Assembly (NCBI RefSeq): GCF_000203815.1
Contig: NW_004457735.1
Location: 1,426,001-1,490,000, forward strand
DNA length: 64,000 bases
Source: Cavenderia fasciculata
Taxonomy: Eukaryota > Evosea > Eumycetozoa > Acytosteliales > Cavenderiaceae
Direction of reading: 5' to 3'
In this document: positions 50,609-54,743 of the stretch, one piece after another
Layout of the letters: each line of letters begins with the position of its first letter
Numbering within the stretch: position 1 is the stretch's first letter
Translations under genes and position numbers: made by a program
Notes under the pieces: generated by a model
Database searches by the model: none
The model's input: only the letters and a program-made list of their open reading frames with translations
Told to the model about the DNA's origin: nothing

Positions 50609-51442
50609 ATGAAGTTTATTAATTCTCTTTATATATTTGTAGTAGTATGTGGTGCTGCTATCATGTCATTGTCTCTTGTGTCTGGTCATGGATTCATGAT
50701 TGAACCAAAGTCACGTCAATTTGTTTGTAATTCCAATCCAAGTAACTCTATTTGGTGGCCTGAAAATGGAGATGGTATTGTAGATGCTGGTTGCAAAGCT
50801 GCCTTTAAATATGTCAAGGCTCGTGGTGGAAATGCTCAATATCAATTCACTCAAGCTAATGAGTATTCAGGTATGAATGATATAACAACTGGTTAATATT
50901 TCTATATTTATAATTTATTAAATTTCCTTTTTCAAGTCAATATTCCACAATATGCTAATGGGTATAGTGCACTAACAGCAGCTGTTCCACAATACCTTTG
51001 CTCTGCCAATGCTGATGGAACAGGTAATTTTGGGGACAAAACAGGTATGTCTGCTGGTGTACCATCACTTGTTGGAGGTGCTTGGACTGTTGGTACTACC
51101 TACCAGGTCGCTTCGACATCTGTCACATCAAAGACTGTCAACTTTACATTTTGTGCAACTGCAACACACTCTCCATCATTCTGGGAGATTTACATTACCA
51201 ATCCAGGTGTCAATGTCGATACAACCAACTTGACATGGAACCATGTGTCATTGGTCCAATCATTTGGCAATATCGTCCCAGTTACTGGTTCATGGACTGG
51301 ATGTCCAGCAACCAAAGCCTACATCTTTACAGTCACTCTACCAACCAGATTTGCCAAATCAACTATCATTTCTCGTTGGCAACGTGATGATCCAGTTGGT
51401 GAATGTTTTATCAATTGTTGTGATATTTTATTTACTGTTTAA
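50609..51442 (+). CDS. Secreted AA10-like lytic polysaccharide monooxygenase / chitin-binding type-4 protein
   Basis: Exons 50609-50870 and 50937-51442 join to 255 residues. A signal peptide (about 1-26, hydrophobic core FVVVCGAAIMSLSLVS) ends just before HGFMIEPKSRQFVC. A mature N-terminal His followed by GF or GY and an SRxxxC motif is the hallmark of AA10 monooxygenases, where that His is half of the copper-binding brace. WWPENGDGIVDAGC is also a family motif. The late region TRFAKSTIISRWQRDDPVGECF matches the RW.R.D..GE..... element. The second copper His may be in TWNHVSL or in CATATHSPSF. It would cleave chitin or cellulose oxidatively, or bind it. It is secreted, perhaps for feeding on bacteria or for remodelling cellulose walls. 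Confidence 0.8.
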
Positions 51443-51520: not shown

Positions 51521-51805
51521 TTAAAGTGCTGCAACAATTGAATTAACCAAACCCAATACTGGGCTTAATAATCTATGTAGGAACATGGTTTGATTTATCG
51601 ATTGATCCATTCCATTATTCATATTGGATGAAGAAATATATTGTTGTGAATTATTTGATTGATGGGCAGTGGCAATTGCAGCAGTATCATGAATAGATAA
51701 TTTTAAAAGTGATTCTATACATAAACCAATTTAAATATTTATATTAATTAGATTTTTTAATAGGTTTGGTTTGTTCGTTTTATTTTTCAACATACTGTAT
51801 AGCAT
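51521..51805 (-). CDS. Tiny two-exon gene, 67 residues (MLxK small-protein family, member 1)
   Basis: Exon 1 is only 10 nt (51796-51805, ATG CTA TAC A) with a GTATGT donor. Exon 2 is 51521-51714. The product begins MLYKSLLKLSIHDTAAIATA and ends in a hydrophobic stretch, LLSPVLGLVNSIVAAL. Exon 1 length, intron phase and the N-terminus match the second intact gene at 53167-53448. A TATA-like AAAACTATAAAT lies about 115 bp upstream. The layout recalls the small hssA-type families of D. discoideum (tiny first exon, short Ser/Asn-rich product), but the sequence is not one I can assign. It is convergent with the monooxygenase gene, 78 bp apart. Confidence 0.6.
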
Positions 51806-52559
51806 TTCTTTAATTTTTTAAATTTAATTGGTTGATTTTTATAATTATCAAGATAGTCGATTGATTGATTGATGATTTTAGATGAAAATAAAAAAAGAAT
51901 GATGATCAAACCATCAATTTATAGTTTTTATAATTATTGATTCATCATCACCATCATCTGAATAAATTGGAGATAGTGACAAATTCCTACCTTTTCAATC
52001 GGGGTTCGTATTTAAATAAAATAAAGATTGAAATTATCCATCCAATCGGAAATGGGTGGGTGATGTCATAGAAAACAAATGTGTCTATGTTATGAGTACC
52101 CCAATACCAAAATAGATTACACATTTTTTTCAATATTTTAGAGAACCATTTATTCTATTTTTGGTTGGTGCATGGAATTATACTTTTCTATACCGATAAT
52201 TCATTTTAATTAAAAATATCGGGTAAATATTTATATCTAGTTCTAACTATATATGCATATCTGAAACTCATGGAGATGAAAAAAACATACCTTAAATAAT
52301 ACAAATGAAATGATGTATTAATTCTCATTAGACATTAATGTTTTTTTATTCATTTATAAAAATAACATAAACTTGATGATGATGAATTCAATTTATCTGT
52401 TCTAGCTATAAAAATACTCTGATCTATTGAGCAATGATGTGGAGTTTTTAATTTTGGAGCTAGAGGGACTCTGTTTTGTCTACTAGATTATAAACCAAGT
52501 ATACCAAACCAAGAATCCACCCAAAAGGTGATGACGAATTTTTGATTTATTTATTCAAT
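51806..52559. other. Upstream region of small-protein member 1
   Basis: About 750 bp without a gene. It holds the TATA-like element (51917-51930, minus orientation), a GGTGGGTGATGTC block near 52045 and AT-rich filler. Confidence 0.45.
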
Positions 52560-52694
52560 CTAGCTCTTTTCAATAGTCATGAGCATCATTGTGTTAATTC
52601 CATAAGGTTCTCTATAATATATCCAATAGAAAAAAAAAGAAATGTAAATTAATTGGATCATTTTGAAAAATAAGATCTAAATCTTGAATAACAT
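52560..52694 (-). pseudogene. Degenerate copy of the MLxK small-protein gene
   Basis: An exon-1-like ATGTTATTCA at 52685-52694 lacks the GT donor (AGATTT follows). An exon-2-like segment from 52611 (AGAACCTTATGGAATTAAC) matches the intact member at 53330 for about 19 bases, then reaches a TGA after encoding KNLMELTQ. The TATA-like box (52772-52785) and the upstream block at 52800-52930 are retained. It reads as a decayed tandem duplicate of a host gene. Confidence 0.55.
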
Positions 52695-52769
52695 ATCGTA
52701 GAAAATGGATTGATTTATTAACAAAATAGAGATAGATTGTTGGATCGTTATTAATTGAGAAATTCAAGG

Positions 52770-52935
52770 TTTTATTTATAGTTTTTAAAATATATTAATA
52801 TATGAATTCAAGGATCCTAGTTAAAAGTTTGAAAAGTACAACCATGTATGGTAATGGGGCAGATGGATAGAATAGATAAATAGATAGATTTTAAGGGGTA
52901 AAGTTTTAGATATGTGGGCGATCATCATCGAATCG
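52770..52935 (-). promoter_or_regulatory. Promoter block of the decayed member, matching the intact member's
   Basis: On the plus strand it contains TTTATAGTTTTT, AATTCAAGGAT, GTTAAAAGTTTG, a TACAAC and ATGG cluster, and finally GTGGGCGAT. The same items occur in the same order at 53565-53790 upstream of the member at 53167, with high identity in the blocks and divergence between them. Confidence 0.55.
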
Positions 52936-53166
52936 CACACACCAAATGTGTGTTTTTAATTTAGATACTTTGGAAGCAGTTGAATTTGTAGGTTTAAAAA
53001 ATGTGGATGGGTCTACAACTCTTTAATGATGAAATATTGGTGTGGTGCAATTTATTAATTGATGTTACAATTTATTTATTTTGTTATAATACTATTTTCA
53101 ATAATACTTTTGGTTTGTATTATTGGTAAAAATAAATAGGAGGGAGGGAAGGTATGATCTAATAGT

Positions 53167-53448
53167 TTATAAAAGACCCAATACACCCAAACCTAATAAT
53201 CCTCCTTGTGAACCCAAAAGACCAGCAACCTTCATTTCTGATAATTCAGCCGAGTTTGGATTTGTGGATTGAATATTGGCCTTTTCAATTGTCTTGGCAT
53301 CATGGTGGACACTTAATTTCATAAGGTTCTCTATTTTATTTCAAAAATAAAAAGAAAAAGAAAAAGAAAAGAAAAAGAAATTGGAATATATCATTAGAAA
53401 TTGATCTAGAAATAAGAAATTAAATCTTGATTATTTACTGAAGAGCAT
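53167..53448 (-). CDS. Tiny two-exon gene, 57 residues (MLxK small-protein family, member 2)
   Basis: Exon 1 is 10 nt (53439-53448, ATG CTC TTC A, GTAAAT donor). Exon 2 is 53167-53330. The product begins MLFKNLMKLSVHHDAKTIEK and ends GGLLGLGVLGLL. N-terminus, intron position and phase, product size and hydrophobic end match the member at 51521-51805, while the middles differ. A TATA-like AAAAACTATAAAT lies about 120 bp upstream. The intron carries an A/G-rich stretch (53346-53378 on the plus strand). Function unknown. The short Gly/Leu-rich hydrophobic end could insert in a membrane or drive self-association. Confidence 0.65.
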
Positions 53449-53564
53449 TTTTTAAGATAGTTGTTTTTTTTAAAAAAAAAGGAAAGATAAATTGTTTGTT
53501 TAATTAACTGAATAGAGATGAAAAGTAGATTGTTATTTGAATTGAAATTGAGAAAACAGGGCCT

Positions 53565-53790
53565 TATTTATAGTTTTTTCCATACCTATTAAACTCTGCA
53601 TAATCATCGGTATAGACAGTAGGTAGATAGGTTAATTTATCAATTCAAGGATTTCGGTTAAAAGTTTGTAAATTACAACTATTCATGCATGGTTGATGAC
53701 AATGAAATTGACAGGACTGACGGATAGATCAATCGATAGATATATTAATGGGGCAAAGTTAACGAAACAAGTGGGCGATTAGGATCCATT
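53565..53790 (-). promoter_or_regulatory. Promoter block of small-protein member 2
   Basis: Plus-strand order: TTTATAGTTTTTT, CAATTCAAGGATTTCG, GTTAAAAGTTTG, TACAAC, ATGCATGG, GGGGCAAAGTT, AGTGGGCGAT. It is shared with the block at 52770-52935. Read on the coding strand, ATCGCCCAC is the most distal shared item and the TATA box the most proximal. Confidence 0.5.
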
Positions 53791-53799
53791 TTTATCATT

Positions 53800-54248
53800 C
53801 GAACCACAAAAATAAAAAGACATAGGAAAGAATGTGTAAATAAAAATAGATACTATTACAGTATAACGAAACGAATAAAGTAATTCGAAATGTGGATATT
53901 GTAGGTTCAATACAAAAATTATTGACTGTCTTTTTGATTCCAAGTATATTTTATCATGTGTTTAGTTTTCACCCATCTGCATACAACACACACACACAAA
54001 TCATATACAACATGTGTAGTTGGTTTTATTTATCAATCTATTTATAGAATAATAAATATCTCCTATGGTATTTGACATCTTTCTTGGCTACACTGTAGTG
54101 ATTAATAAGAATAATATTAATTTTGTTGGTTCAGTCAATTGAAAACCAAGAACTTCTTCAAATTTATTGTTTCCTCCAAAATGAGATATCGACACCCATG
54201 ATTCGGTTATGAATATCTAGCTAGAATTCAAGAATATCTTTATTTTAG
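53800..54248. other. Intergenic, AT-rich
   Basis: Between the small-gene promoters and the LTR-like repeat. It contains a CA-repeat (about 53988-53999). No gene seen. The repeat may extend into its right part (about 54220-54248), which I cannot verify from two copies. Confidence 0.4.
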
Positions 54249-54743
54249 TATTTTAATGTCTTGTATACTTTTGAATTTATAGGTTATCTTATATTTTTCC
54301 AACAATGAAAAATAGATTCAATAATTTTCTTGAATGATCAAAATAATCTTTATTTATCAATATTCACAAATGGATCACACAACAACTATAAATACACTGG
54401 TAGAGTGATTGAAAAGAATTGTCACTTGGTTTAATAGCCTTGTGACCAAACACCTTCTCTCAGAGTTTATGCTCTGATTATGTGTAGTATCTGTTCTAGA
54501 AAGCTTAATCTCTTTCTGCCTCCACACGTTGCGATGGCTTTAATGATTAATCTAATTTATTTACGGAGCACTCAAGACTATTCTATCAATGCCAACTATG
54601 TTGTTCAATTGTAAATAGTCTTCTATCGACCATGAATCGCACTATTATCATGGTAATACAATGGTAGACTCCACACGCCCCCTTAATTTAATTTAAATGA
54701 AATATAATATTTAAGATAGCCTAGGCTGTGATACCAATCCTTC
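54249..54743 (-). mobile_element. LTR-like dispersed repeat, copy 1 (fossil)
   Basis: About 495 bp, nearly identical in inverse orientation to copy 2 at 62795-63288. Read on the minus strand it begins with TTGGTATCACAGCC, close to the initiator-tRNA primer-binding sequence known from many copia elements, then about 50 bp later a purine tract AAGGGGG and TGTGGAGTC, the look of a polypurine tract followed by an LTR start. No gag or pol region lies between or beside these parts, so it is an incomplete remnant. High identity of the two copies suggests a recent origin or gene conversion. Confidence 0.6.

Follow-up and report, generated by a model that had tools for sequence, protein, structure and literature searches.

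What are the two tiny split genes that lie with a damaged third copy on the minus strand of a 64,000-nucleotide (nt) stretch of the Cavenderia fasciculata genome (contig NW_004457735.1, positions 1,426,001 to 1,490,000; hereafter "the window", 66.7% A+T), and do they have relatives beyond this place? A preliminary description reported two intact genes for proteins of 57 and 67 amino acids (aa), referred to here as gene57 and gene67, and one decayed copy; re-derivation of the gene structures recovered all three at the places given, with the splice junctions exact. The three form a small tandem array, in which the decayed copy is a pseudogene and the other two are intact. The best explanation overall, to which we assign a probability of about 0.83, is that this array belongs to a large family of small proteins whose start is split by a phase-1 intron, and that the family is an offshoot of the hssA lineage.

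In gene57, the coding part of exon 1 is ATGCTCTTCA (53439..53448, minus strand, as are all parts of the array), which encodes MLF and the first base of a Lys codon; re-splicing and the genome-wide pattern search described below agree on it. It is followed by a 108-nt phase-1 intron (53331..53438, GTAAAT...TAG) and by exon 2 (53167..53330), which together give a 57 aa protein with the start MLFK|NLMKLS (the bar marks the intron), a polar middle and a Gly/Leu-rich hydrophobic end. The corresponding parts of gene67 are ATGCTATACA (51796..51805), likewise recovered by re-splicing and by the genome-wide patterns, an 81-nt phase-1 intron (51715..51795, GTATGT...TAG) and exon 2 (51521..51714); the 67 aa product starts with MLYK|SLLKLS, continues with an Asn/Ser/Gln-rich middle and also ends in a hydrophobic segment. 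Neither protein contains Cys. Thus, ATG plus seven coding bases, a GT-AG intron with standard donor and acceptor, and the same intron phase are common to both genes, as had been proposed. The proposed 10-nt first exon holds for the coding part and not for the physical exon, which including its leader probably measures some 90-100 nt, because the TATA box is situated about 120 nt upstream of the ATG. The decayed copy lies between the two intact genes and consists of an exon-1-like ATGTTATTCA (52685..52694) that has lost its donor and an exon-2-like stretch (52490..52611), in which the expected frame, entered at 52611, runs into a stop after seven full codons. Alignment identifies it as a duplicate of gene57, with 68% identity in the far upstream part (96 of 141 aligned ungapped columns), 76% between the TATA box and the vicinity of the start (64/84), 82% in the initial part of exon 2 (59/72) and 41% in the rest (20/49). 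Gene67 is a more distant copy (59%, 37/63, over the initial part of exon 2); its exon 1 was not lined up by the automatic alignment, and identity figures for that part were left unused.

An AT-rich genome offers starts, donors and short frames in plenty, and the likeness of the three copies could simply stem from duplication within one array. We searched the whole genome (30,995,898 bases in 21 contigs) for exon 1 with its donor (ATG-NTN-TWY-A|GTAWRT), using the reversed pattern as a control. The search returned 69 sites, compared with 21 for the control; the latter number, and about a dozen of the 69 matches that look chance-like by eye, speak for chance. When we asked for a YAG acceptor 40-180 nt further on, a spliced protein of 40-120 aa and the residues x-L-x-x-[LIMV]-[SGTAN] after codon 4, 46 of the 69 sites qualified (44 of 67 when the window genes, which had suggested this rule, are set aside), while Markov-shuffled downstream sequence did so in only 7 of 3,450 trials (0.2%). 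A pattern covering exon 1, intron and acceptor together gave 22 matches against a single one for the control; twenty were already listed and two, with GC donors, were new. Gene67 is among these 22, and the intron of gene57 exceeds the length that the pattern allows. Together with the purifying selection reported below, these counts refute chance as an account of the group as a whole, and we give it almost no credence for the array. The expectation that members with the same 10-nt coding exon, intron phase and start motif exist elsewhere in the genome has thus been borne out.

The 46 gene models of this group, which we call the 10-nt clan, encode 45 distinct proteins with a median length of 68 aa (range 50-113) and have introns of 67-133 nt that end in TAG (43/46) or CAG (3/46). 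According to the C-terminus or body they fall into an IDIDID type (21 models), an RP-[YSA]-[WY] type (12), an SQIQT type (2) and others (11, including the window pair). Residues 2-4 are constrained by the search pattern, and Leu-6 as well as the residue classes at positions 9 and 10 by the rule for exon 2, so that the motif is best judged at positions that were free or wide: among the 43 distinct proteins other than the window pair, Lys-4 occurs in 35, Asn/Ser/Thr-5 in 38, Ser/Thr/Ala-7 in 41, Lys/Gln/Asn-8 in 39 and Ser-10 in 34. Adjacent sites among the 69 form 12 head-to-head pairs within 1.1 kilobases (kb), seven of them at 376-409 base pairs (bp), as well as 2 convergent and 6 tandem pairs; both partners give a clan protein in 11 of the 12 head-to-head pairs, and the window array itself is of the tandem kind.

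Several other loci of the clan deserve mention in their own right. The regions C1:670400-675700 (L025-L030) and C13:253700-257800 (L065) harbor clusters of three and two head-to-head pairs, respectively. In these pairs a gene with the C-terminal sequence FSRPYWCKW is coupled to one with RPSWAFGYC or a near variant, which means that two subfamilies have stayed paired. In members or candidates at C2:923282 (L018), C2:1072054 and C2:1076705, the 10-nt exon is followed by a GC-AG intron. At C2:936219 and C18:1797732 the exon 1, intron and start of the MLFKNLSQLS subfamily are kept and the frame is cut after about 30 residues, which suggests that both are likely pseudogenes of that subfamily.

Do gene57 and gene67 themselves belong to the clan? 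Their second exons open with NLMKLS and SLLKLS, both of the form x-L-x-x-[LIMV]-[SGTAN]. A profile of the start built from the 43 other distinct members, with the window pair excluded, scores both above their own shuffled versions (P-value 0.0035 for gene67 and 0.0095 for gene57), with the best position exactly at the exon start. Compared over ten residues, the start of gene57 shares 9 with that of the member at C3:2434220 and 8 with other matches, while gene67 reaches 7 at best. We consider the placement of the window genes in the clan very probable.

Selection on the protein can be seen in part of the clan. The median pairwise ratio of non-synonymous to synonymous substitution rates (dN/dS) is 0.22, 0.35, 0.42 and 0.35 in four subfamilies (8, 11, 6 and 5 genes; 27, 53, 14 and 10 pairs), which include 8 genes of the MIFKNLSKLS type and 11 of the MLFK/MLYK-NLSQ type, and the introns of the same subfamilies differ at 27-40% of aligned sites. 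Purifying selection is therefore plain in these four; the window pair is too divergent and too few in number to be part of this comparison. The figures bear on the idea that the transcript, whose promoter and intron are conserved, is the functional product rather than a protein. The CCCAC block found some 130-195 nt before the TATA box resembles the upstream element of dictyostelid small RNA genes, which led us to compare the window with Rfam; on the genes this returned only mir-4766, on the opposite strand, with an E-value of 0.67 and far under the gathering score, and we rejected a non-coding RNA there. A function at the RNA level would agree with the finding that single deletions of six D. 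discoideum family genes had no significant developmental effect (PMC8554618). Open frames are kept in four subfamilies at the dN/dS values given, and together with the Rfam result this makes an RNA function unlikely.

The promoters of the clan share a layout. CTATAAA occurs within 250 nt upstream of 29 of the 46 members, in 27 of these at -92 to -133 from the ATG, compared with 6.9% of shuffled sequences and 4.9% of random pieces of the window. It was also found at 9 of the 23 sites that gave no clan protein, which fits some of those being members. In the window it lies at -125 (gene57) and -119 (gene67), within the clan range of about 90-135 nt, as part of the word AAAACTATAAAT, which does precede all three copies, as had been noted: gene57 at 53566..53577, the decayed copy at 52774..52785 and gene67 at 51917..51928 (contig positions C3 1479566, 1478774 and 1477917, by word search). 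Taken alone this word is weak evidence, with 127 copies in the genome against 80 of the reversed word, and CTATAAATA also stands before a neighboring U2 RNA gene. The TATA position, the head-to-head pairs and the dN/dS values support the clan members as protein genes with a shared promoter layout.

The preliminary description also pointed to a series of upstream blocks reaching as far as ATCGCCCAC. This block is exact before gene57 (53771..53779) and before the decayed copy (52914..52922), and gene67 has the one-mismatch form ATCACCCAC (52056..52064), which overlaps a site that fits the published GBF consensus. As a regulatory element of the family it had to be rejected: the GCCCAC block was found within 450 nt upstream of only 2 of the 46 members, one of them gene57, and for this reason we regard the block series as mostly a record of the gene57 duplication and not as a family-wide feature. 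GBF-like sites precede all three window copies; among control pieces of 500 nt, 30-37% contain such a site too.

How do these genes relate to families already known? The preliminary description likened them to hssA and noted that the sequences differ; the tiny coding first exon and the phase-1 intron uphold the first part, and the difference is real as well. It understated the precedent, since such an exon had already been published for the D. discoideum hssA/sigN genes (PMC2257962), and the design is thus not new. Among 96 sigN-like D. discoideum genes, 89 have a first-exon frame of 13 nt (PMC2257962), and hssA genes likewise have a first exon of 13 bp (PMC6198379). These nearly one hundred genes are reported to be developmentally regulated, and their function is described as unclear (PMC2257962, PMC6198379). 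The 13 closest genes form two clusters, partly as inverted pairs, and carry GBF-like boxes; the two promoter reporters tested were active in prestalk cells (PMC2257962). The hssA/2C/7E-sigN genes (Pfam family PF05710, "Coiled") and the window genes are alike in the tiny coding first exon, the single small phase-1 intron and a product of less than 120 aa; at the level of the clan, further likenesses are clusters with inverted pairs and a conserved start with a divergent end, and GBF-like sites may be another (PMC2257962, PMC6198379). They differ in that the coding part of exon 1 measures 13 nt there and 10 nt in the window genes, one codon fewer.

The genome of C. fasciculata holds both forms. 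The PF05710 profile found 12 matches in it, 10 of them over the cut-off, and inspection of the upstream DNA assigned a 13-nt exon 1 to six (MTIL/MSIL starts), a 10-nt exon 1 to four and none clearly to two (L020, L022). All four of the 10-nt matches read MIFK|NLSKLS, one with a GC donor, and three of them are over the cut-off. Conversely, 6 of the 38 clan models (out of 46) compared with PF05710 match it at E-values up to 1, the best being 1.6e-4. A search for the 13-nt pattern gave 8 matches against 4 for the reversed pattern, and 7 of the 8 encode family-like proteins, all with a TATA box at -77 to -124. The two forms are bridged, by a slim margin, through the PF05710-matching proteins with 10-nt exons. 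The 13-nt hssA-type genes here start with MTIL, MSIL or MTLF, the clan with M[LI][FY]K. The 13-nt gene L093, which lies outside the 12 PF05710 matches, reads MTLFA|ALSQISGS..., and its main difference from the 10-nt MLFK|NLSQLS start is an extra codon 2. Since the place and phase of the intron relative to the conserved Leu/Ile are the same in both forms, one ancestral gene followed by loss (or gain) of codon 2 is the simplest reading. We conclude that gene57 and gene67 represent a divergent variant of the hssA/2C/7E-sigN kind, with a 10-nt exon, and not hssA proper, and that the clan most likely branched off the lineage of the 13-nt genes by losing codon 2.

A number of observations weigh against this conclusion or limit it. 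With respect to the clan, 23 of the 69 sites yielded no protein of the required kind, of which about 9 look like members or pseudogenes by eye (e.g. MLFKNLSQLSSVSG... at C2:936219) and the remainder chance-like; the start motif is short, and partly (residues 2-4, 6, 9 and 10) demanded or limited by the search itself; and GBF-like sites within 500 nt upstream of 35 of the 46 members are a modest excess over the 30-37% of the control pieces, among related members that are not independent. With respect to the window pair, it was the seed of the genome search, its profile scores (7.5 and 5.2) are well under the median of 14.5 (range -2.3 to 19.8) that leave-one-out scoring gives for the other members, and searches with the full proteins found no other locus resembling their C-termini, with one weak match at an E-value of 1.78, so that relatedness is shown through gene structure and start motif. 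In Pfam, gene57 had no match, and those of gene67 (COX15, tRNA methyl transferase, VP19C) were below threshold and unconvincing. With respect to hssA, neither window protein matches PF05710, both lack the Cys/Gly/Ser-rich body of sigN, and the 10-nt genes pass the profile narrowly (21.7-22.4 bits vs 21.4, a margin of 0.3-1.0 bit), to which body composition could contribute. As for structure, amphipathicity of the N-terminal segment is weak in single proteins (P-value <0.1 against shuffles in only 9 of 45), and the low-confidence model of gene57 exon 2 (predicted without alignment; mean predicted local distance difference test score (pLDDT) 63, predicted template modelling score (pTM) 0.17) has a single helix, C-terminal (residues 42-52), with no C-terminal strands and none of the N-terminal helix that we had expected.

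The lack of a PF05710 match for the window proteins and the small margin of the 10-nt genes lend some weight to convergence, i.e. to the possibility that the window genes or the whole clan are unrelated to hssA/sigN and share with it a motif of only about ten residues; the narrowness of the PF05710 bridge led us to raise its weight and to lower slightly our confidence in the main reading. The paper on Mef2A also describes a D. discoideum group of proteins of 57-59 aa as not significantly similar to hssA (PMC3640940). Convergence would leave without a common cause the agreement between the two forms in intron phase and in where the intron lies with respect to the conserved Leu, the three 10-nt genes over the PF05710 cut-off, the 13-nt gene with the ALSQIS start and the similar TATA placement (-77 to -124 in the 13-nt genes vs -92 to -133 in most of the 10-nt genes with a TATA box). 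We consider it unlikely, and the link of the window genes to hssA by descent probable.

Within the same genome, the closest comparison is with the "IDID" genes of the clan (MIFKNLSKLS.../MLFKNLSQLS...), which agree with the window genes in the 10-nt exon, the intron phase and the place of the TATA box and differ from them in a Cys/Arg-rich IDIDID body that mostly ends in Trp or Cys. Outside it, the group annotated as "Small proteins (57-59 aa), prestalk specific" in D. discoideum, e.g. DDB_G0283503, shares the size class of the window proteins (PMC3640940); that paper sets the group apart from hssA in one place and counts DDB_G0283503 as hssA-related in another. Decoded by eye, the printed forward primer for reverse transcription PCR of DDB_G0283503 would encode (F)K-SLQSITS, a clan-like start, and the reverse primer VAAVA, a hydrophobic stretch like that in gene67 (PMC3640940); both are leads only. 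SRCP1 (serine-rich chaperone protein 1) of D. discoideum, of about 9 kilodaltons, has been grouped with sigN and other small developmental proteins (PMC8554618). Gene57 may be likened to it for the hydrophobic Gly-rich end, and is unlike it in being shorter and not serine-rich. Chaperones of the SRCP1 type are characterized by a pseudo-amyloid C-terminus with which they suppress aggregation. In the literature searched (titles, beginnings of abstracts and passages, with subscription journals outside its reach) no 10-nt-exon form is described, which is no proof of its being unpublished.

Two neighbors of the array were identified as well. A gene for the U2 spliceosomal RNA (54452-54674, plus strand; RF00004, 58.7 bits against a gathering score of 46, E-value 3.4e-10) lies about 1 kb from gene57 in divergent orientation and carries CTATAAATA about 65 nt upstream. 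On the other side, what is probably a split gene encoding a lytic polysaccharide mono-oxygenase (LPMO_10, PF03067; two open frames with E-values of 3.5e-6 and 2.2e-21) occupies 50609-51442 on the plus strand, convergent with gene67.

What could such proteins do? The promoter with its GBF-type site and TATA box would switch the genes on in multicellular development, and expression of the prestalk type is, on balance, the expectation we favor for the window genes. The conserved start M-L-F-K-x-L-x-K-L-S, with hydrophobic residues at positions 2, 3, 6 and 9 and a mean hydrophobic moment of 0.33 against 0.23 in shuffled sequences, could form a short segment able to bind a membrane or a partner protein, while the fast-evolving remainder with its variable C-terminus may set the role of each subfamily. 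The C-termini of the window proteins are hydrophobic (highest Kyte-Doolittle mean over 19 residues: gene57 1.56, gene67 1.51; 2 of the 45 distinct clan proteins reach 1.6), as in SigN and SRCP1, and by this analogy they might associate with themselves or bind aggregation-prone proteins or membranes, the activity that we hold likeliest for them, at well below even odds. Common descent alone may explain why the early intron is retained.

The hssA/7E/2C peptides have been called specific to Group 4 of the social amoebas (PMC8067170), and D. (Cavenderia) fasciculatum belongs to Group 1 (PMC4334915). A Group 1 genome with 12 PF05710 matches, 10 of them over the cut-off, and 46 models with the 10-nt exon conflicts with that statement (PMC8067170). 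If our reading is true, the family predates Group 4, the statement needs revision, and an accessory role in the cup cells of Group 4 would be no explanation for it. The 10-nt-exon form is a variant of a design already known from D. discoideum. Tentatively, and at somewhat less than even odds, we suggest that the split-start system is ancestral to social amoebas and not an invention of Group 4, and that it persists here chiefly as the 10-nt form, which lost codon 2 and diversified. We would then be looking at a modular and rapidly evolving repertoire of small developmental proteins: the start with its intron is a conserved cassette, subfamilies have unrelated-looking C-termini behind a fixed start and promoter, and the window pair represents a hydrophobic, SRCP1-like branch. 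A search rule that combines a 10- or 13-nt coding first exon, a phase-1 intron and the start xLxxLS could recover dictyostelid genes that frame-based annotation may miss.

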